The notes under the pieces were generated by a model. The model had not been told where the DNA came from and made no database searches. It worked only from the letters and a program-made list of their open reading frames with translations. Position numbers and translations under genes: made by a program. This document shows positions 1-13,136 of a stretch of 44,599 nucleotides of DNA, piece by piece (the first letter of the stretch is position 1; each line of letters opens with the position of its first letter). Where the stretch lies: contig VGOW01000031.1 of the NCBI GenBank assembly GCA_016875735.1, positions 1 through 44,599 on the forward strand, written 5' to 3'. The DNA comes from Chloroflexota bacterium (GTDB taxonomy: Bacteria; Chloroflexota; Anaerolineae; Anaerolineales; VGOW01).

Positions 1-1636
1 CCGCCACCACCGCGCCGCGGCTGGCAAACGTGCCCGCGCCCCAATAGAATTGATCGGTGTCGCCCGTCACCACTTCCACGTCGCGCACATCCACCCCGAT
101 CTGATCGGCAACGATTTGGGCGAAGCTAGTGAAGTGCCCCTGCCCCTGCGTGCCGATTCCGGTGGCCAGAGACACTTTGCCGCTGGCTTGCACTTTCACC
201 CGCCCGCCCTCATACGGCCCGATGCCCGTGCCTTCCACATAAGCCACCACCCCGATGCCCACGTGCTTGCCTTCAGCGCGCAAGCGCGGCTGTTCCTCCT
301 TCACGAATTTCTCGTAGCCGATCATTTCCAACGCTTTATCCATGATCGGGTTGTAGTTGCCGCTGTCGTACACCAGCGGGGCGAAGTCTTGATAGATCAC
401 CTCATTGTTGTACGGGAACTTGTCGGGCGGGATGTAGTTGCGCCGACGAATCTCGACGCGATCGATGCCCAGCTGTTTCGCGGCGATGTCCAACAGCCGC
501 TCGATGACGAACACGCCGTGCTGCCGCCCTGCGCCGCGATACGGAGTCACAATCGTTTTGTTGGTGAACAGCGCGGTGAACTCGGAATAGTAGTTGGGAA
601 TGTCGTACGGCCCCAGCAGTGTGCATTGGCTGTTGAGCGGCGTGGTGAGGCCATAGGGGTTGTACGCGCCGTTGTCGTGCAGAAACACATCGTGCACACC
701 GAGAATGCGGCCATCGTTCGTCAACGCAATTTCGGCGTCGTGAATCTGATTCCGCTCCTGAGTGGTGGCGACGAAATGCTCGGCGCGATCTTCGATCCAT
801 TTGATCGGGCGGTTGAGCTGCATGGCCGCCCATGGGATGACCGCCTCCTCTTGATACCACATCATGATCTTCGGCCCGAAGCCGCCGCCGATGAACGGGG
901 CGATCACCCGAACCTGATTCTCGGACAGGCCGTAGATGCCAGCATACAGATTACGCATCACCACCGGGGCCTGCGTCGTTTCCCACACCGTGAGTTTTGC
1001 GGCTCGCGCATCCCATTGAGCCACGATGCCGCGATTCTCCATCGGAGCCGACGCGCCGTGATCGTAGAGGAAGCGGCGTTTGATGGTGAGTGCGGCTTCG
1101 GTGCGCGCCGAGTCGTAATCGCCTTTGCGCTGGATAACGTGCGCGGCCACGTTCGAGCCAATGTCCTCATGCACGAAATCGGAGGCGGCGTCCCGCGCTT
1201 GCTCAAGTTCGACAACGGGGGTGAGCGGCTCGAAGTCCACGACGATGTCGCCCAGCGCATCTTCGGCCACGTATCGGCTGTCGGCGATCACCACCGCAAT
1301 CGGCTCGCCCACGAAGCGCACTTTGTCTTTGGCCAACGGCACTTGCGTGCGGGCGTTGAAGGCGATGCCCGGCACGGGCGGCGGCTGAACCAACAGCGGC
1401 CCCGGCCCCCACAAACTTCCGAGGTCGGCGGCGGTGAACACTGCCGCCACGCCCTTCCGTTCCCGCGCGCGCGAAACGTCGATGCGGTTGATGCGCGCAT
1501 GAGCATACGCGCTTCGCAGGAACGCGGCGTGCAGCATATCGGGCAGTTCAACGTCGTCAACAAACAGGGCCTGCCCGGTGAGCAGGCGCGCATCTTCGTT
1601 GCGGGTGATCGGTGCGCCGAAATAGCGTGTGGCCAT
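1..1636 (-). CDS. Molybdopterin-binding large subunit of a xanthine/CO-dehydrogenase-family hydroxylase, 3' end outside window
   Basis: Catalytic subunit of a molybdenum hydroxylase, which would hydroxylate a substrate (N-heterocycle, aldehyde or similar) with water at a Mo-cytosine dinucleotide site. The reading frame starts MATRYFGAPITRNEDARLLTG at 1636 with GGAGG at 1643-1647 and stays open to base 1 (about 545 codons; the family is usually 750-800). Near residue 366 it reads PYRGAGR. This is the site of the active loop: form I CO dehydrogenase has AYRCSFR there and form II/other family members have AYRGAGR, so it is not a classic CO dehydrogenase. Near residue 490 TGIGTQGQGH and then GTFASRG are the usual cofactor-binding stretches. 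Its FAD and Fe-S partners lie about 6.4 kb upstream in the same cluster (8064-9406), an unusual split. Substrate is inferred only from the neighbours. Confidence 0.9.
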   Translation of the reverse strand, partial: MATRYFGAPITRNEDARLLTGQALFVDDVELPDMLHAAFLRSAYAHARINRIDVSRARERKGVAAVFTAADLGSLWGPGPLLVQPPPVPGIAFNARTQVPLAKDKVRFVGEPIAVVIADSRYVAEDALGDIVVDFEPLTPVVELEQARDAASDFVHEDIGSNVAAHVIQRKGDYDSARTEAALTIKRRFLYDHGASAPMENRGIVAQWDARAAKLTVWETTQAPVVMRNLYAGIYGLSENQVRVIAPFIGGGFGPKIMMWYQEEAVIPWAAMQLNRPIKWIEDRAEHFVATTQERNQIHDAEIALTNDGRILGVHDVFLHDNGAYNPYGLTTPLNSQCTLLGPYDIPNYYSEFTALFTNKTIVTPYRGAGRQHGVFVIERLLDIAAKQLGIDRVEIRRRNYIPPDKFPYNNEVIYQDFAPLVYDSGNYNPIMDKALEMIGYEKFVKEEQPRLRAEGKHVGIGVVAYVEGTGIGPYEGGRVKVQASGKVSLATGIGTQGQGHFTSFAQIVADQIGVDVRDVEVVTGDTDQFYWGAGTFASRGAVVA

Positions 1637-1638
1637 AT

Positions 1639-1701
1639 CAATCCTCCAATCCTCTCATTCTCCATTCTCAAGATTAGAGAATCGGAGAATGAGAGGATTG
1701 A
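1639..1701. repeat. Short-word hairpin repeat between cyclase and Mo-subunit genes
   Basis: Words such as CAATCCT, TCTCATT and CTCCATT follow one another at about 7-base spacing. A perfect 17-base inverted repeat (1647-1663 with 1684-1700) encloses an inner ATTCTC/GAGAAT pair. On the transcribed strand the 3' arm runs directly into the GGAGG that serves the gene starting at 1636, so the repeat contributes to that ribosome-binding region. Confidence 0.85.
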
Positions 1702-2550
1702 CTACTTGCGTTTCTTCGCCAGCGGTTTGCGCGCAGGCTTCGCGGCGGCTTTGGCAGCGGGCTTCGACTCTTCCACGAGGGCGAAGGCGCGGCAGAACGC
1801 GGCTTCGCCGCCCTTGAACTTCCACGGCATCGCGCCGAGAATGAGTCGGCGGTTGTGCAGCTCTTTGCGGCCCATGTCGCCGCCGAGATTCTCCACGTGA
1901 ATGCAGTCGTGCGGGAAGAGGGCGTTGTGCGTGAGTTGATAGGCCGAGTCGGGGAACAACTCATCCATCCGGTTTTTGCCGAACTTGGCTTCGCATTTGG
2001 CCCGAACTTTCTGCCAATGCTCCAAACCGCCCTTGCCGAGGAAACGGCCAATGGGCAGGTTCATCGGGTGATCGGTGGAGATCATGTCCACGCCCCAAAT
2101 GTGAATCTTCTTTTTCAACAGCCAATTGCAAATGCTGTAATGGGGGCCGGGGTGCCGATGAATGTACCGCTCTTCGTCGCCATCGGGGCTGAGGAAGGAA
2201 TACTTGTGCCAGCCGGTATGAATGAAGAGGATGTCGCCGTCGCGGATGTCGGCGCGGGCTTCGAGGTCTTCGGGGGTGAAGAGGGCGAGGTCGTCGCAAA
2301 TGTCGCTCACGTCCACAATCACGCCGGGGCCGTAGCACCACTCAATCGGAATCTGCTCGATGGTTTTGCCCTTCGTCACGAAGTGGCGCGGGGCGTCGAG
2401 ATGCGTGCCCATGTGGTTGGAAGTCTGAATGTATTGCGCGTTGACCCCGTGCTCCGATTTGCGCTTGAAGTATTTCACCTCAAACGGCGGATAGAACGGC
2501 CAGAAGGAGCAATCTTGGTTGAGGTCTTGGGAGAGGTCGTAGATTTTCAT
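1702..2550 (-). CDS. Cyclase-family metal-dependent hydrolase (kynurenine formamidase/isatin hydrolase type)
   Basis: A 282-residue member of the cyclase family (PF04199), metal-dependent hydrolases that cleave amide or lactam bonds; characterised relatives include kynurenine formamidase and isatin hydrolase. The metal motif is clear: NHMGTHLDAPRHF, with H46, H50, D52 and H56. The start at 2550 (MKIYDLSQDL) is preferred over in-frame starts up to 2628 because it has AGGAG eight bases upstream and begins at the family's usual N-terminus. The last 20 or so residues are Lys/Ala/Pro-rich (ending LAKKRK), an unusual basic tail. It lies between the four-helix-bundle gene and the Mo subunit in one direction, which suggests it opens a ring or cleaves an amide made by the oxidase. 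Exact substrate unknown. Confidence 0.85.
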   Translation of the reverse strand: MKIYDLSQDLNQDCSFWPFYPPFEVKYFKRKSEHGVNAQYIQTSNHMGTHLDAPRHFVTKGKTIEQIPIEWCYGPGVIVDVSDICDDLALFTPEDLEARADIRDGDILFIHTGWHKYSFLSPDGDEERYIHRHPGPHYSICNWLLKKKIHIWGVDMISTDHPMNLPIGRFLGKGGLEHWQKVRAKCEAKFGKNRMDELFPDSAYQLTHNALFPHDCIHVENLGGDMGRKELHNRRLILGAMPWKFKGGEAAFCRAFALVEESKPAAKAAAKPARKPLAKKRK

Positions 2551-2574
2551 TGGGGGGCTCCTGTGAGGTGATGG

Positions 2575-3111
2575 GTAAGTCGTAAATGGTAATTTAGGAA
2601 TTGAGCCAGTCAAGTTCAGCATCGGCAAAGAGGGTTTCAGGGAAGTTTTGCCAATTGTCTACAGTGTAGTCGGCGGCGAGTTCACGAAGGGTTTTTGGCG
2701 AACGCTGTTCGCCAGCGCGGACATTTTTCAGGCTGTTGGCAAAGGTGTTCAGTTGGCGGACCAAGTCGGTAAGTTGAGATGCGTGTTGTTGCGCTTCTGC
2801 TAGCGGCATCAGTTCGCGTGACTGCGCGCGGTTAAGCCAATGTTTGGTTTCAAACAGACTGCCGCGCGCAAAGTATAGGAATTGGAGTTTTTCGCCAAAA
2901 TGAAAGCGACCAAACGACTCGGCGATATTGGCCCCGATGGAGTCAGCGGCTTTGGCCAACTGCACGCCCACCACTTCTCGGGCAAATTTATCCCAATGCG
3001 CCGCCCGCTTCCAAATGGAGTCGGCAATTTCTTCGGCGATCTTCAACACTCGCAAATCATCGAAAGTTGCTGACATCCTTGTCTCCAATTACCATTTACG
3101 AATTACAAATT
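2575..3111. mobile_element. Repeat-bracketed cassette carrying a four-helix-bundle gene
   Basis: The left arm (2575-2594, GTAAGTCGTAAATGGTAATT) and the reverse complement of the right arm (3087-3106) agree at 19 of 20 bases. Both arms are made of 7-base words (left GTAAGTC, GTAAATG, GTAATTT; right ACCATTT, ACGAATT, ACAAATT) like the other word repeats in the window. The 492 bases between the arms are essentially one gene (2594-3076), whose TAA stop lies at the left arm. The layout resembles 23S rRNA intervening sequences, which are stems enclosing a gene of this family, but here it sits in an operon. No target duplication was recognised. That it is mobile is inference. Confidence 0.55.
2594..3076 (-). 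CDS. Four-helix-bundle protein (23S rRNA intervening-sequence protein family)
   Basis: A 160-residue helical protein of the four-helix-bundle/IVP family (PF05635). Diagnostic stretch: AADSIGANIAESFGRFHFGEK followed by FARGSLFETKHW, the usual NIAEGxGR and A-x-GSxxE region. Members occur in 23S rRNA intervening sequences, as Avd in diversity-generating retroelements, and as free-standing genes whose biochemical role is unknown; Avd binds nucleic acid and reverse transcriptase. ATG at 3076 has GGAG nine bases before it; a TTG four codons earlier is possible. It interrupts the catabolic operon between allG and the cyclase gene and lies between inverted repeat arms (2575-2594 and 3087-3106), so it looks like an inserted passenger rather than a pathway gene. 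Confidence 0.85.
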   Translation of the reverse strand: MSATFDDLRVLKIAEEIADSIWKRAAHWDKFAREVVGVQLAKAADSIGANIAESFGRFHFGEKLQFLYFARGSLFETKHWLNRAQSRELMPLAEAQQHASQLTDLVRQLNTFANSLKNVRAGEQRSPKTLRELAADYTVDNWQNFPETLFADAELDWLNS

Positions 3112-4347
3112 GTATTTCTCCGCATAAGCGATCACCGCCTCTTCAAAAATTGCCATCGGCGGGCGCACCAGCCCTGCGCCCACCTGCCCGATGCCCGGCA
3201 GGCGGTGGGCCACGCCGGTGTTGATGCGCGGCAGAATGCCCTTCTCCACCACCTTGCGAATGTCGATGCCCGTCGGCGTGCCGCGAAAATCGAGTACGGG
3301 CATGGTGAAGTGTTTGTGTTCCGCCGCAGTGATCTCGTACATTTCGAGCGTGGCGTTCATCGCATCTTTCGGAGTGCTGCCCACAAAAGTGACGATGGCC
3401 GGAGCGGTGGCCATGGCGAATCCACCGATGCCCGCCGTCTCGGTGATGGCGCTGTCGCCGATGTCGGGATTGGCGTCGGCGGCGGTGAAACCGGGGAACC
3501 ACAACCCCTGCGGAATCTCCGCCGGAGCAGTAAACCAGCGGTCGCCCAGCCCGCTCACTCGAATGCCGAAGTCGGTGCCGTTGCGAGCCATCGTGCTGAC
3601 AAGGGTGCTTCCTTCGACTCCGTGCGCCGCATCGGTCATCGCTTTGCAGGCGGCCATCACCGGGTTGAGCACGCTCAGCGCGTTATCGCCGATGAACTTC
3701 AACGCCTCGCTTTCAGTGTCGGCATCCTTCGCCACTTTCGCCACCAACGGCGCAAGCCATTTGAGAAACAACAGCGATCCGGCTTTGTTGCGGTTATGCC
3801 CTTCATCGCCCATGTGCAGGGCTTCGGCCAACAACGCGCGAATATCCAGCCCCTCGCCGCTCGCGGCCACCGCCTCGCCCACGATGGAAGCAAACGTGTC
3901 GTTGATCCAGCGCAGGCGCTTGATCACCTCATCGCTGAATGCGCCCATGCGCAAAACTTTGCCGTAGCCTTCATTGAAGTTGCAGTAGGCCTTGTTGCCG
4001 TGCGTAAGATTTTCGACAACGTACACTTTCATCGAAGGCGAAATCACACCGGCCATCGGCCCCACCGCGCCATGCTCGTGGTTGGGCGCGAACTGCGCCT
4101 CGCCCCTCTCGGCCATCGCCGTCGCTTCCGCCTCAGTCTTCGCCAAGCCTTCGAGAATCATCGCGCCGATCATCGCCCCCTTCATCGGCCCGGCCATTCG
4201 ATCCCACGTCACAGGCGGCCCGGCATGGAAAAACAAATTGCTTTTCATGCCGGGGATCACGTCGCGCGCAGTGGCGACGCTTTTCAACACGGGCCGCGCG
4301 TCCATCATCCGGCTCACCGCAGTTGCGTTTGCTTGTTCGATGTCCAT
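3103..4347 (-). CDS. allG: AllG/YlbE-family protein (DUF1116), oxamate-carbamoyltransferase-type subunit
   Basis: A 414-residue DUF1116 protein, colinear with E. coli YlbE, sharing stretches such as LFFHAGPPVTWDRMAGPMKGA, AYCNFNEGYGKVLR, GIRVSGLGDRWFTAP, NPDIGDSAITETAGIGG and IDIRKVVEKGI. In E. coli, FdrA, YlbE and YlbF (AllF, AllG, AllH) have been reported as an oxamate carbamoyltransferase that yields carbamoyl phosphate in anaerobic allantoin use. Here AllF lies directly upstream, but no AllH (DUF2877) and no carbamate kinase are visible, so the complex is incomplete in this window or has been replaced. The upstream gap (4348-4423) is filled by a word-repeat hairpin. Family assignment is firm; the substrate (oxamate or another ureido/carbamoyl compound) is inferred. 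Confidence 0.88.
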   Translation of the reverse strand: MDIEQANATAVSRMMDARPVLKSVATARDVIPGMKSNLFFHAGPPVTWDRMAGPMKGAMIGAMILEGLAKTEAEATAMAERGEAQFAPNHEHGAVGPMAGVISPSMKVYVVENLTHGNKAYCNFNEGYGKVLRMGAFSDEVIKRLRWINDTFASIVGEAVAASGEGLDIRALLAEALHMGDEGHNRNKAGSLLFLKWLAPLVAKVAKDADTESEALKFIGDNALSVLNPVMAACKAMTDAAHGVEGSTLVSTMARNGTDFGIRVSGLGDRWFTAPAEIPQGLWFPGFTAADANPDIGDSAITETAGIGGFAMATAPAIVTFVGSTPKDAMNATLEMYEITAAEHKHFTMPVLDFRGTPTGIDIRKVVEKGILPRINTGVAHRLPGIGQVGAGLVRPPMAIFEEAVIAYAEKYNL

Positions 4348-4365
4348 TGTCTGCCGGTAGCCAGC

Positions 4366-4435
4366 GATTGGTAATTGGTGATTGGTAATTGCTGATCACT
4401 GATTACCAATCACCATTTACCAATCACTGATTACT
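4366..4435. repeat. Ten-unit heptamer hairpin repeat
   Basis: Ten consecutive 7-base words: GATTGGT, AATTGGT, GATTGGT, AATTGCT, GATCACT, GATTACC, AATCACC, ATTTACC, AATCACT, GATTACT. The two halves pair as a 24-base stem (4366-4389 with 4401-4424, 23 of 24 matching) around a short loop. The 3' end of allF, including its TGA stop (4424-4426), lies inside the array. Confidence 0.9.
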
Positions 4436-6109
4436 CTTCTTCATCTTCGCCAAAATCGCCGCCAGCTTTTCGTTGCCCGCGGCGGGTGGCCGCCAATCCA
4501 CTTGCACGGCTTGCGCGCCCTGCCCGACGAGACTCGTGTAAAACGATTCCAAGCCGACGTTGATCGCCGCCAGCGGTTGATGGAGCGACTCCAACGACAC
4601 CGGGGCGCCGACACTGCCGGGCGGCTCACTCATCCGCCCGGCCACATACTCAATGGCCTCCGTCGCCGTGCGGAACACCACCGCGCCCGCCTCCGCCAAT
4701 CGCGCCACTTGCGATTCTAGATTTTGCGGATCGTCCTCCGTCCCAACCACCACTACTACTACCTCAATCTCCAATCTCTGCTCTCTAATCTCTTTGATCG
4801 CCGGAGCCAACTCGCTCGCCGGATCGGGGTGCGCACCTTCGCCCAGCACAACGTCCAACAGAATCATACCCACGTCGGGATCAGCGGCTTCCTGCCGGAG
4901 TCGGCGCAAACGGAGATCGTTATCGATCATCGGGTGCAAACGTCCCACCATGAAAACATCGTCGCCCAGATCGACAATGGTGTGCGCCTGACTCTTCAGC
5001 GGATCGGGAAGCGTTTGATCTTTGGTGATCGGCGCGTTGGAGAAAAGGGGCGACAGCACCGCCTGCAAACCGAGCATGGTTTCATAGGCCAGCGTGCCGC
5101 CGGAGAACAATCCTCGTAAGTAGCAATTAGCAAGTGGTAATTGGGAAGGCATCTCCCACTTACCCCTTACTAGTAACTGTGTTGCCATCTCCGCCGCTTC
5201 GCTCAGGCCCGTCGCAAAATGCAGGTTGCCCAACTTGCGCGCCGGGGGCGGGTAGCCAATGAAATCGACGACGACCGGCTTGCCCACTGCTTGCGCGGCG
5301 GCCAACAATTTTGCGGCCACCGACGCGGCGGGCGGCTTCGAGACAAGCACGATCACTCTCGTTTCAGGATCGCGGGCGAGAGCATCCAACCCTTGCCGCA
5401 TCGTGATCGCGTCCACTTCCAATTTGAGATCGCGTCCGCCGGCGCCGATGGCGTGTGATACGCCGCCGCCCAGTGTGTGAATGTGCGCGGTGACGGCCTG
5501 CAAGCCCGTGCCCGCCGCGCCCACCACTCCGATTGGCCCACGCCGCACGCGATTGGCAAAACCCAAACCGACTCCGTTGATGATCGCCGTGCCGCAGTCG
5601 GGGCCCATCACCAGCAGGCCTTTCGCCTGCGCCGTTTTCTTCAGCGCGATCTCATCTTCGAGCGAGACGTTGTCGCTGTAAAGGAACACGTGGCGATTCA
5701 GGTTGAGCGCGTCGCGGGCCACTTGCGCGGCAAAGCGCCCCGGCACCGAGACCAGCACCCACGAGGCATCCGGCAGTTGCTGCGCGGCAGTTTCTAAACT
5801 CTTCGGGCGGAACTCGTCGGCAACGGAGGCGCGGCGGCGCGAGAGCAACGAGTCCACTTGCTTCAGGGCGTCGCCTGCCGCCGAGTCGCTTTCGGCTTTG
5901 ATCACGATGAGCAGATCGTTTGCGCCCGCTTTTTTGTTTTCGTCGGTGAGCAGGCCGCTCTGATCGAGCAGTTCGAGATTGGCGGGCGTGCCCATCACCA
6001 CACCCGCGTCGGCCACGCCGGGCAAGCCCAACAGCGCGCGCTGTAACTGCATCAGCACCGCCGAATCGAAATACGCGCCGGGCCGAATTTCACTGCGAAC
6101 AGAATTCAT
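4424..6109 (-). CDS. allF: AllF/FdrA-family acyl-CoA-synthetase-like protein
   Basis: A 561-residue homologue of E. coli FdrA (about 555), the succinyl-CoA-synthetase-like subunit reported as AllF of oxamate carbamoyltransferase. Visible family features: an N-terminus GAYFDSAVLMQLQ then GVVMGTPANLELL, a nucleotide-binding-like GVVGAAGTGLQ, PDCGTAIINGVGLGFANRVRRG, LRGLFSGGTLAYE and GTEDDPQN. The start at 6109 is chosen because it fits the family N-terminus, has AAGGG upstream, and follows the coxG-like stop by one base (TGA-A-ATG), implying coupled translation. Two heptamer repeats lie in frame inside it (4765-4799 and 5120-5183), encoding KEIREQRLEIEVV and the low-complexity stretch before LRGLFSGG. 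The frame stays open, so the protein is probably functional. Confidence 0.87.
   Translation of the reverse strand: MNSVRSEIRPGAYFDSAVLMQLQRALLGLPGVADAGVVMGTPANLELLDQSGLLTDENKKAGANDLLIVIKAESDSAAGDALKQVDSLLSRRRASVADEFRPKSLETAAQQLPDASWVLVSVPGRFAAQVARDALNLNRHVFLYSDNVSLEDEIALKKTAQAKGLLVMGPDCGTAIINGVGLGFANRVRRGPIGVVGAAGTGLQAVTAHIHTLGGGVSHAIGAGGRDLKLEVDAITMRQGLDALARDPETRVIVLVSKPPAASVAAKLLAAAQAVGKPVVVDFIGYPPPARKLGNLHFATGLSEAAEMATQLLVRGKWEMPSQLPLANCYLRGLFSGGTLAYETMLGLQAVLSPLFSNAPITKDQTLPDPLKSQAHTIVDLGDDVFMVGRLHPMIDNDLRLRRLRQEAADPDVGMILLDVVLGEGAHPDPASELAPAIKEIREQRLEIEVVVVVVGTEDDPQNLESQVARLAEAGAVVFRTATEAIEYVAGRMSEPPGSVGAPVSLESLHQPLAAINVGLESFYTSLVGQGAQAVQVDWRPPAAGNEKLAAILAKMKKSNQ
4765..4799. repeat. Heptamer repeat inside allF (five units)
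   Basis: Five words of seven bases: CAATCTC, CAATCTC, TGCTCTC, TAATCTC, TTTGATC. They code on the minus strand for part of a Lys/Glu/Ile/Val-rich stretch that ends in a run of six valines just before GTEDDPQN. The same word style is found in intergenic repeats of this window. Confidence 0.75.
5120..5183. repeat. Heptamer hairpin repeat inside allF (about nine units)
   Basis: Words AGTAGCA, ATTAGCA, AGTGGTA, ATTGGGA, then CCCACTT, ACCCCTT, ACTAGTA, ACTGTGT form two halves with partial complementarity (AGTGGTAATTGGGA facing TCCCACTTACC). It encodes about 21 extra residues immediately before the conserved LRGLFSGGT of AllF, an in-frame insertion of roughly 63 bases. Confidence 0.75.
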
Positions 6110-6110
6110 T

Positions 6111-6554
6111 TCACCCTTCGATTTTCTTTTTGGCGCAGGCAAAAAACTGCTCGGTGAGTTTCTGGCTCACAGGCTGCATCATGCGCGCGGCGAGGCTGGC
6201 CAGCTGCCCCAGCACCACAATGTCCGCCGTCCATTTCATTTCGGTGGTGTTGCCGGGCCCGTCGCTCAGACTCATTTCGCTGGTCACATCGGCGGCGCTG
6301 CCGGGCGCGTTGCCGTGCGCTTTCACCTTCGCCCGGCTGGGCGCATCGAGCTCGACCCACTCGGCGTCGCCGGTGAACTTGGCCTTCACCGACCCGAAGC
6401 CGATGGAGGCCGTGGCCCGAAACTTTTGGCCCGGCACAAGAACTTCCACCGACTCGACTCCCGGCGCGCATTGACTCACCTTCATCGGGTCGATGAGAAA
6501 CTCCCAAACTTTATCGCGGGAAGCATTGATGGTCACAGTGCCGGATAGTTTCAT
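6111..6554 (-). CDS. CoxG-like SRPBCC protein (carbon monoxide dehydrogenase subunit G family)
   Basis: A 147-residue START/SRPBCC-fold protein of the CoxG family (PF06240). It begins MKLSGTVTINASRDKVWEFLIDP and continues with a MKVSQCAPGVESVEV stretch, the typical CoxG N-terminus ending in a conserved CxPG-like turn. CoxG proteins accompany molybdenum hydroxylases; in Oligotropha CoxG helps tie CO dehydrogenase to the membrane, and others are thought to bind hydrophobic cofactors such as quinones. There is no signal peptide. It follows the amidase gene across a 226-base repeat region and is separated from allF by one base. Its presence supports the view that the oxidase subunits in this cluster form one working system. 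Confidence 0.88.
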   Translation of the reverse strand: MKLSGTVTINASRDKVWEFLIDPMKVSQCAPGVESVEVLVPGQKFRATASIGFGSVKAKFTGDAEWVELDAPSRAKVKAHGNAPGSAADVTSEMSLSDGPGNTTEMKWTADIVVLGQLASLAARMMQPVSQKLTEQFFACAKKKIEG

Positions 6555-6570
6555 GGGTCATGTCTCCATA

Positions 6571-6765
6571 TTTCAACACGAAGGCACAATGGCTCGAAGG
6601 CACAAAGCCTTTCGAAAAGATCCTTTCGTGCCTTTGTGTCTTGGTGACTTGGTGTTACCTTGAAAATCCTTCGTTTCAACACGAAAGCACAATGGCTCGA
6701 AGGCACAAAGCCCTTTCAAAAGACTTCTTCGTGCCTTTGTGTCTTTGTGACTTGGTGGTTTCTCG
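6571..6765. repeat. Tandem pair of about 100-base hairpin repeats
   Basis: Two direct copies begin at 6571 and 6674 (TTTCAACACGAAGGCAC and TTTCAACACGAAAGCAC, 103 bases apart). Each is itself a hairpin: CGAAGGCACAAAG pairs with the later CGTGCCTTTGTGTCTT. They fill the space between the amidase stop (6781) and the coxG-like start (6554). No gene is seen in this space. Confidence 0.9.
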
Positions 6766-11881: not shown

Positions 11882-11958
11882 ACCTGACAAGATGAAAGGA
11901 TGAAGGGATGACAAGGTGAACATAGGGTTCACCTTGTCACCTTGTCATCTTGTCAGGT
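11882..11958. repeat. Hairpin repeat overlapping the lipoprotein gene stop
   Basis: Outer arms ACCTGACAAGATGA (11882-11895) and its complement at 11945-11958 and inner arms TGACAAGGTGAAC (11909-11921) and its complement at 11927-11939 form a long stem; the units TGACAAG and ATGAAGG are repeated. The TAA stop of the lipoprotein gene (11958-11960) touches the outer arm. Confidence 0.88.
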
Positions 11959-13136
11959 TAATTGCCGCCCTCGGTGATTTCAACTTCCTGAGGTGTATAG
12001 CCTGCGCCGACCACATCGATGCCCTGCGCGGCCAAATCGGCGGCGGCCTTCTCGGCCAAGTCGGTGCGGTAAGCGCCCGAATCGGGTTCGGCCTTGAGCA
12101 CGGCTTGCGAGGTGGCCACTTCAACCGTCTGCGTCCACAGCGCGGCATCCATCACGCCGATTCCGGCGGCTGGCGACGGCCAGATCAATTTGTTGATTTC
12201 GTTCAACTGCCAAGTCATGTGGCCGCGCCCGAGCGTGGGGCCGTTGGACAAAACGATCTCGACGCACTCATCAAAGTTGTCGCGGCAGAAGACCCAGCCC
12301 TTGAAGGTGGCGCGCAGGAATCGCACGGCCACATCCTCGTTAGCCGGATCGGCCAGCCAGTCTTCGCGCGCCCACACCGCGTCTTGCAGCATGGCCGTGC
12401 CCACTTCGTTGAAGTTGATCACCACGAGGTCTTCGGGCTGGTACAGCTCGCCAGTGTCGGGGTTCACGGCTTCGAGCACCTGCGCGTATTCGTTGTAAGT
12501 CATGGCCTCGGCGGCATCCACTTCGCGGTTGAGCAGCAGCGACATGTCGAACGGCTGTTGGATCACTTCCACATCAGTCTTCGGGTCAAGCCCGGCCTGC
12601 ACCATCGCCGCTAGCAATTCGAACTCGTTGCCGAAGCCCCACGTGCCCACCTTCTTGCCCCTCCAATCTTCGGGTTTGGTGATGCCCGAGTCGGCCCACG
12701 AGACTTCGAGCGTGCCGCTGCGCTGGAAGACCTGGCCAATGTTCACGATCTTCGCGCCTTCCTCGCGCGAGACGAGGGCTTTGGGCACCCACGACACAGC
12801 GAACTCGGCTTGGCCGGAGGCCAACACTTGTTGAGGCACGATGTCCACCGCGCCTTCTTTGATGGTCACGTCCAAACCTTCTTCGGCGTAGAAGCCTTTG
12901 TCAACCGCGGCGTAATATCCAGCGAACTGCGATTGAGTGACCCACTGCAATTGCAGGGTGACTTTGACCGGCTCCGCCGGGGCCGGGGGTTCGGTGGCCG
13001 CAGGCGCTTGAGTGGCGGCGGGCGCTGAAGTGGGGGCCGGGGCCTCGGTGGCGGCGCCGCCGCAAGCGGTGATCACCAGCGTGACCACTGTCAACAGCGC
13101 TGCGGCGCGAATCCATGTATGAAGTTTCGACTGCAT
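11958..13136 (-). CDS. ABC transporter substrate-binding lipoprotein, NMT1/THI5-like
   Basis: A 392-residue periplasmic-type binding protein of the NMT1/THI5 family (COG0715 type), members of which bind pyrimidine precursors, sulfonates, nitrate or riboflavin. It has a signal peptide with lipobox VITAC (lipid-anchored C25), an Ala/Pro/Thr-rich linker to about residue 55, then the binding domain starting VKVTLQLQWVTQSQFAGYYAAVDKGFYAEEGLDV, the classic N-terminus of pyrimidine-type members, and later KVGTWGFGNEFE. The ATG is preceded by AGGAGGAG. It is last of the four transporter genes and immediately precedes the ureidopropionase and dihydropyrimidinase genes, so a pyrimidine-like ligand is the best guess. 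Confidence 0.9.
   Translation of the reverse strand: MQSKLHTWIRAAALLTVVTLVITACGGAATEAPAPTSAPAATQAPAATEPPAPAEPVKVTLQLQWVTQSQFAGYYAAVDKGFYAEEGLDVTIKEGAVDIVPQQVLASGQAEFAVSWVPKALVSREEGAKIVNIGQVFQRSGTLEVSWADSGITKPEDWRGKKVGTWGFGNEFELLAAMVQAGLDPKTDVEVIQQPFDMSLLLNREVDAAEAMTYNEYAQVLEAVNPDTGELYQPEDLVVINFNEVGTAMLQDAVWAREDWLADPANEDVAVRFLRATFKGWVFCRDNFDECVEIVLSNGPTLGRGHMTWQLNEINKLIWPSPAAGIGVMDAALWTQTVEVATSQAVLKAEPDSGAYRTDLAEKAAADLAAQGIDVVGAGYTPQEVEITEGGN

Follow-up and report, generated by a model that had tools for sequence, protein, structure and literature searches.

The window analysed here, a stretch of 44,599 nucleotides that is contig C31 of the Chloroflexota genome G000 (assembly of 4.15 Mb in 150 contigs), contains a small gene of the S23 family lying between two inverted repeat arms and set among protein-coding genes. 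An earlier note on this DNA had likened the arrangement to the intervening sequences (IVSs) of 23S rRNA and had offered two readings, either an IVS-like element outside rRNA or the autonomous member that moves the 7-base word repeats of its genome, as RAYT transposases do with REP sequences. The locus thus raises the question of which of these readings, if either, describes it, and whether its anatomy is peculiar to this contig or common to genes of its family.

The S23 element of the window

The protein matched PF05635 (23S_rRNA_IVP) with 76.6 bits (cut-off 33.8) and TIGR02436 (four helix bundle protein) with 74.2 bits (cut-off 24), and its AlphaFold2 model (mean pLDDT 85) consists of four long helices (residues 5-25, 30-56, 60-86 and 92-123), a low-confidence stretch (126-140) and a short C-terminal helix. 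A Foldseek search with this model returned the S23-family structures 2GSC and 2RLD as the best matches (2GSC: TM(target) = 0.88, E = 4e-4), in agreement with a four-helix-bundle fold, followed by the DGR protein Avd (4DWL, 8UB7/8UB8), with a probability of 1.00 but E ≥ 0.09; a likeness of PF05635 to Avd has been noted previously (PMC10053308). The AllG-like, S23 and cyclase genes all lie on one strand, the S23 gene between the other two (Table 1), and no Rfam match was found in positions 1500-5000, the element lying outside any rRNA gene. Its arms are 20 nt long, 95% complementary and 492 nt apart, and they were paired in the minimum-energy RNA fold of the element (z = −3.5), as expected for the terminal inverted repeat of an IVS. 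The description in the earlier note of a 160-codon four-helix-bundle gene bracketed by inverted arms is thus upheld by the profile matches and by the arm match, its prediction that the arms would pair in RNA around the gene by the fold, and its proposal of an IVS-like element outside rRNA and within an operon by the neighbouring genes and the Rfam result. Its further claim, that the arms are built from the 7-base words of the other arrays, stands in part: GGTAATT recurs in the gene-less hairpin at about 4364-4436, which we propose to be a dependent form, and the elements have no one word in common. The idea of a single shared word has to be given up, since each lineage has its own word of 7 or 8 nt.

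Table 1. Positions of the S23 element, its neighbours and gene-less hairpins in the window
Feature	Position	Strand	Details
Putative cyclase gene (PF04199)	1702..2550	minus	downstream neighbour of the S23 gene
Downstream arm	2575..2594	minus	matches the upstream arm 19/20 when inverted; abuts the S23 gene at its end
S23 / four-helix-bundle gene (PF05635, TIGR02436)	2594..3076	minus	160 aa; ATG at 3076, end at 2594
Upstream arm	3087..3106	minus	coding strand GTAATTCGTAAATGGTAATT; 7-nt word
AllG-like gene (PF06545)	3103..4347	minus	upstream neighbour of the S23 gene
Gene-less hairpin	~4364..4436		window arm word, GGTAATT/GGTGATT then ATTACCAATCACC; between FdrA-like and AllG-like genes; score 25
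FdrA-like acyl-CoA synthetase gene (NF004760)	4424..6142	minus	next gene upstream
Two tandem near-identical hairpins	6571..6757		word GGCACAA/GGCACGA; 103-bp period
Gene-less hairpin	11885..11959		word TGACAAG, as in the arms of L003, a further S23 gene in G000

Inverted word arms are general among S23 genes

PF05635 was matched nine times in G000, once below the cut-off, and the flanks of the S23 genes of this genome carry inverted arms of differing words in most cases. Across the order, 82 of 98 S23 genes from 32 genomes had inverted arms (score ≥ 15) and 16 scored lower, compared to 16/563 for positions displaced 600-1100 nt within those loci, 69/1960 for mismatched elements, 21/980 for dinucleotide-shuffled flanks and 1/29 for PIN-domain genes from the same genome set; mismatched elements within one genome reached the threshold in 25/482 cases, and because this figure is low, the elements of one genome must mostly use different words. 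The S23 genes were drawn from 207 matches in 43 of 61 genomes, of which 99 were examined in order of score, which biases the set to strong matches; L049 was left out for its short flank, and L100 was left out of the 30 PIN loci. The arm observation is therefore confirmed as real and general. The earlier note had allowed that other genes of the family might lack arms, or that the flanks might be ordinary arrays that happen to be complementary; G000 and its relatives turned out to be mostly armed, far above the controls, and the mismatched, shifted, shuffled and PIN controls rule out chance or ordinary arrays.

The median arm is 38 nt long and the median stretch between arms 409 nt. Self-identity of the arms peaks at lags 7 (0.52), 14, 21 and 28 and, to a lesser extent, at 8 (0.36), compared to about 0.25 in coding or distant DNA. 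The arms consist of a 7- or 8-nt word repeated in tandem, the best unit being 7 in 62/88 and 8 in 20/88. A scan of 1139 kb for other genes between word arms, of little weight because its array filter misses the 20-nt arm of the window itself, found 27 array pairs, direct or inverted, 250-1500 nt apart, none of them around an S23 gene. Outside the order, all six S23 genes examined on cyanobacterial plasmids (six of 40 records with a match; 300-nt flanks) reached a score of 15, and a wider set spanning many phyla did so in 57 of 82 loci, compared to 70/1230 mismatched combinations. This set comprised the best 80 of at least 574 named loci plus two viral contigs, and its query (A2) was built from armed elements; 25/82 loci scored below 15, and some phyla with only one or two loci lack arms by score. 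L259 and L270, identical in sequence to L010 and L023, were counted in the 57/82 and left out of the cross-phylum word test, as was one element titled only 'bacterium'. Carriage by viruses was considered and set aside: narrow queries returned two related loci in IMG/VR and one in phages, and for the window protein they returned none. One of the plasmid genes (L129:2501-2860, Pseudanabaena galeata) is an armed S23 gene flanked by cas6 and cas4 in a string of type I-D CRISPR genes.

The word of the arms follows the protein. Arm similarity rose with protein identity, chiefly above 50% (order, L084 left out; Mantel r = 0.36, 0/2000 permutations), and a correlation was also observed when only pairs from different phyla were considered (r = 0.21, 0/2000), with words shared across phyla in 0.7-0.9% of pairs below 50% identity, 7.9% at 50-60% and 26.5% at 60-80%. 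Unit length agreed with that of the nearest protein neighbour in a fraction of 0.89 compared to 0.64 expected (0/5000), and in 0.84 compared to 0.64 (0/5000) when neighbours from the same genome or the element's own genus were excluded; under the same exclusion, the period-8 elements alone agreed more weakly (0.48 vs 0.23, 68/5000). In 13 same-locus S23 pairs, dN/dS was 0.02-0.12, which indicates purifying selection, six of these values being upper bounds because synonymous sites were saturated, and the arms shared a word (similarity ≥ 0.6) in 11 of the 13 pairs, though synonymous positions had largely turned over. The arms of the same-locus pair L037/L045 have partly diverged (similarity 0.46). 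The clear exception is the window element, whose word is GGTAATT in G000, while in G002 both arms carry a GGATTGGA-like word of 8 nt (similarity 0.20); a gene can thus switch words. The S23 protein of L005 shows a word array read into its own ORF, with repeated peptides such as LSTHNSPLSTH at its N-terminus.

Gene-less hairpins and comparison of loci

Beyond the arms, 445 kb of G000 contained 98 lag-7 and 26 lag-8 arrays, compared to only 3-7 at lags 5, 10, 11 and 13; lags 6, 9 and 12 gave 49, 22 and 36 arrays, as expected from codon structure. A local inverted partner was present for 42 of 111 array clusters. The words of seven of the eight armed S23 genes of G000 matched solo arrays of this genome (median 5.5), compared to 26/59 words of other families (median 0; p = 6e-4 for the difference), so that dispersed gene-less hairpins match the repeats beside the gene, as they do in the REPIN/RAYT system. 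Hairpins matching an S23 word of the genus had the same polarity in 18 of 22 cases, with three opposite and one tie; among the amplified families, CAAACG gave 11 to 2 and CGTATTC 5 vs 10, and since the latter is mixed, hairpin polarity is not a general property.

Array density also tracks the presence of the cognate gene, again as in REPIN/RAYT, in a comparison uncontrolled for kinship or for genome size, which differs (p = 0.025). In the 18 S23-free genomes, three lag-7 arrays were found in 564 kb, which equals the level of the control lags, while the 25 S23-bearing genomes other than G000 had 57 in 695 kb. The samples were first contigs or fixed positions rather than random draws, and 13 of the 26 sampled S23-bearing genomes gave no lag-7 array, every such sample being 20 kb or shorter. 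The three arrays of the S23-free set are all from G059 (L166-L169), which has no S23 match; they may be relics, because four other genomes of its genus carry two or three S23 genes each.

Some pairs of elements at unrelated loci have homology confined to the stretch from arm to arm. In L042/L046 and L003/L046, the homology spans nearly the whole element, end to end, at unrelated loci (L042/L046 with seven further short, scattered translated matches outside the element), and L039, from the order, and L133, on a Trichormus plasmid, share 77% protein identity and arm-to-arm homology, with flanks that do not match. Orthologous sites could be compared at two loci named from their flanks. At the first, cimA|leuB, G000 and G002 have an S23 gene, and G003 has instead a compact hairpin with perfect 21-nt arms and a word resembling that of the S23 element L036. 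At the second, pth, a hairpin occupies the same position in each of the five genomes of the genus, with differing words, and only in G000 is there an S23 gene within the loop; the slot words were read by eye and then scored, and the hairpins of the other four genomes scored 16, 19, 17 and a weak 14. Two of these words are unevenly amplified, a CAAACG-type word having 56 matches in G002 and 0, 1, 1 and 0 in the other four genomes, and a CGTATTC-type word having 52 in G004, 39 in G001, 10 in G002 and 1 and 0 elsewhere (the G001 and G004 assemblies are incomplete). A slot thus tends to hold a word currently abundant in that species, which agrees better with spread or conversion than with gradual drift at the site. 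Of the two amplified families, 25 of 40 sites examined were compact hairpins (10/20 and 15/20), mostly with short loops, and no common flank was seen among the 40.

The empty sites to which the earlier note had pointed as a check did not appear: where readable, orthologous gene-less sites were solo hairpins, and the flanks of L003, L001 and the window element led to no hairpin-free site. The orthologue of the window locus was cut by a contig end in G004, and its search gave no match in G001 or G003; the flanks of L004 gave no usable orthologue. No target-site duplication was found, the gene-less sites compared all carrying hairpins. At L005 (G000:C6), a near-identical coding stretch of about 20 bp, HsdS-type-like, is present on both sides of the S23 element, possibly as a target duplication or as part of two adjacent genes.

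Readings of the element and known systems

As read from the sequences compared, these loci support a mobile unit with dependent gene-less hairpins, and we consider it probable that the whole is a mobile element composed of an arm, an S23 gene and an inverted arm, based on recognition between protein and word, with gene-less hairpins as its dependents. The S23 protein would most likely bind its own word array, as a single strand or a hairpin and in DNA or RNA, and such recognition would tie the gene to its arms and to the gene-less hairpins, which would spread through the genome as dependent copies. PDB entries 2GSC and 2RLD have five chains each, and a ring of five subunits meeting a tandem word would be an attractive geometry. 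The strand chemistry of the copying step could be supplied by host replication or by an HUH transposase. A requirement for reverse transcriptase is unlikely given that PF00078 had no match in 33 of the 43 S23-bearing genomes, some of them incomplete (G000 has one match), and the enzyme seems unneeded because the S23-rich genomes G039 (22 S23 genes), G006 (16) and G027 (11) have none. The same count separates the elements from DGRs, with whose Avd protein they share a similar predicted fold.

The S23 genes might instead act at the RNA level, as IVS-like elements whose arms pair in the mRNA, leaving the gene in the loop of a stem that RNase III cuts; the arms would then protect the host operon, and the words would be by-products of slippage. 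The pairing of the window arms in the RNA fold argues for this account, as do the anatomy and RNase III excision of the Coxiella 23S IVS (PMC4990558) and the neighbours of S23 genes, which, with strands taken from the longest open frames rather than annotation, were on the same strand in 131 cases and on the opposite strand in 28 (PIN: 23 vs 18; p = 7.5e-4), a co-directional placement that fits an element tolerated because RNA can fold it out. However, the genome-wide link between arrays and S23 genes, the co-variation of word and protein and the uneven amplification are left unexplained, and we regard this account as a real possibility that falls short of being probable; it is compatible with the mobile-element reading rather than exclusive of it. 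A role as an RNA-binding post-transcriptional regulator, with word hairpins in UTRs as its regulon and its own arms as autoregulatory sites, would suit the intergenic positions within gene strings and the purifying selection, and regulatory roles and a repeat-binding protein have been proposed for TAACTGA arrays (PMC4679880). We think it unlikely, since the differing words of sister species at one site and the bursts of different words are more in keeping with a spreading repeat than with a stable regulon, and one genome can contain several words and several S23 genes side by side.

The hairpins could also be moved by HUH (Y1, TnpA_REP/RAYT-like) transposases, with S23 as cargo or accessory in some loops. 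PF01797 (E ≤ 0.001) was matched in 38 of 43 S23-bearing and 6 of 18 S23-free genomes, and its counts correlated with those of S23 genes (rho = 0.66, 61 genomes), which may point to a helper transposase; RAYTs, moreover, are tied to REPIN hairpins (PMC3116915). That they are the movers is nevertheless doubtful, because the six S23-free genomes with Y1 had only three lag-7 arrays in 275 kb, every one of them from a single genome, five S23-bearing genomes had no Y1 match, and a cargo role does not predict that word and protein co-vary. The view that word hairpins are ordinary repeats, made everywhere by slippage and quasipalindrome correction, with S23 genes among them by chance, can appeal to the abundance of word arrays in G000 and to inverted array pairs without S23, but it is very improbable in view of control rates of 2-5% vs 84%, of the background array level in S23-free genomes, and of a word and unit length that follow the protein.

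In the mobile-element reading, S23 genes, word arms and gene-less hairpins look like a mobile-repeat system whose parts were previously unconnected, and, with binding and movement as inferred here, the system would work like REPIN/RAYT with a non-HUH protein. In REPIN/RAYT, a diverse cognate gene is accompanied by hairpins that spread as its dependent copies, and co-evolution of gene and repeat has been proposed (PMC3116915), a logic that the present gene-less hairpins with their cognate gene resemble. The two differ in that S23 is a four-helix bundle without an HUH domain, the repeat consists of a 7- or 8-nt word in tandem, the gene lies within the hairpin, and a genome may hold up to 22 S23 genes. 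The REP/RAYT-like autonomous member suggested by the earlier note accordingly survives in its tie to the word repeats of the genome, while its protein is of the S23/Avd rather than the HUH fold: PF05635 is the sole family match of the window gene, its structural matches are S23 and Avd proteins, and a profile search found no transposase domain in it.

The anatomy of the window element is also known from inside rRNA. The Coxiella 23S IVS is described as an S23 ORF preceded by two or three tandem heptamers, within a 28-bp terminal inverted-repeat stem and subject to RNase III excision, and its authors think that the S23 protein is not made there (PMC4990558); IVP ORFs are also reported from rRNA insertions of CPR bacteria (PMC11270868). 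In both the IVS and the present elements, a terminal inverted repeat encloses an S23 gene in its loop, and in Coxiella there are tandem heptamers too (PMC4990558), whereas the present elements are found away from rRNA, flanked by protein genes, and a genome has several copies with differing words. Judging from the Coxiella heptamers, rRNA IVSs may be one form of this element, and 23S rRNA IVSs might be the same element at one privileged site, with RNase III removing the RNA copy.

According to PMC4990558, S23 proteins have no known function, and a detailed literature on heptameric repeats is said to be lacking (PMC4692102). The two are now linked by a statistical rule, which makes a protein's own word array a candidate ligand, offers the matched protein-word pairs as a natural set from which a recognition code could be read, and would also account for S23 genes in some rRNA IVSs. 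A search of titles and abstracts in the open-licence literature found none that joins S23 genes to heptamer arms in general. Cyanobacterial STRR sequences are likewise heptamer arrays. Arrays of TAACTGA occur in Beggiatoaceae, where the authors suggest that the mobile element might be a repeat-binding protein (PMC4679880), and Xanthomonas has arrays of GGGAATC, 70 inverted pairs of them in Xcc (PMC4692102); a term search of the available text of these two papers gave no mention of S23 or four-helix. Like the present arrays, those of all three groups are dispersed, intergenic and of 7-nt words, partly as inverted pairs; the present data differ in tying such arrays to S23 genes, and in other taxa. 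A still wider proposal, which we find evenly balanced between right and wrong, is that of a widespread class of bacterial mobile DNA in which hairpin arrays of an evolving 7- or 8-nt word are maintained and spread because a small protein recognises that word, the protein being a ring-forming non-enzyme instead of a transposase. Orphan four-helix-bundle genes, 23S rRNA IVSs and the heptamer arrays known from Xanthomonas, Beggiatoaceae and cyanobacteria would then belong to one system, whose words sweep through species and replace each other at fixed slots. Dense related arrays, several of the AGCTACC type, were also observed in G029 (L197:173-3493), just upstream of the S23 gene at 3542-3902.
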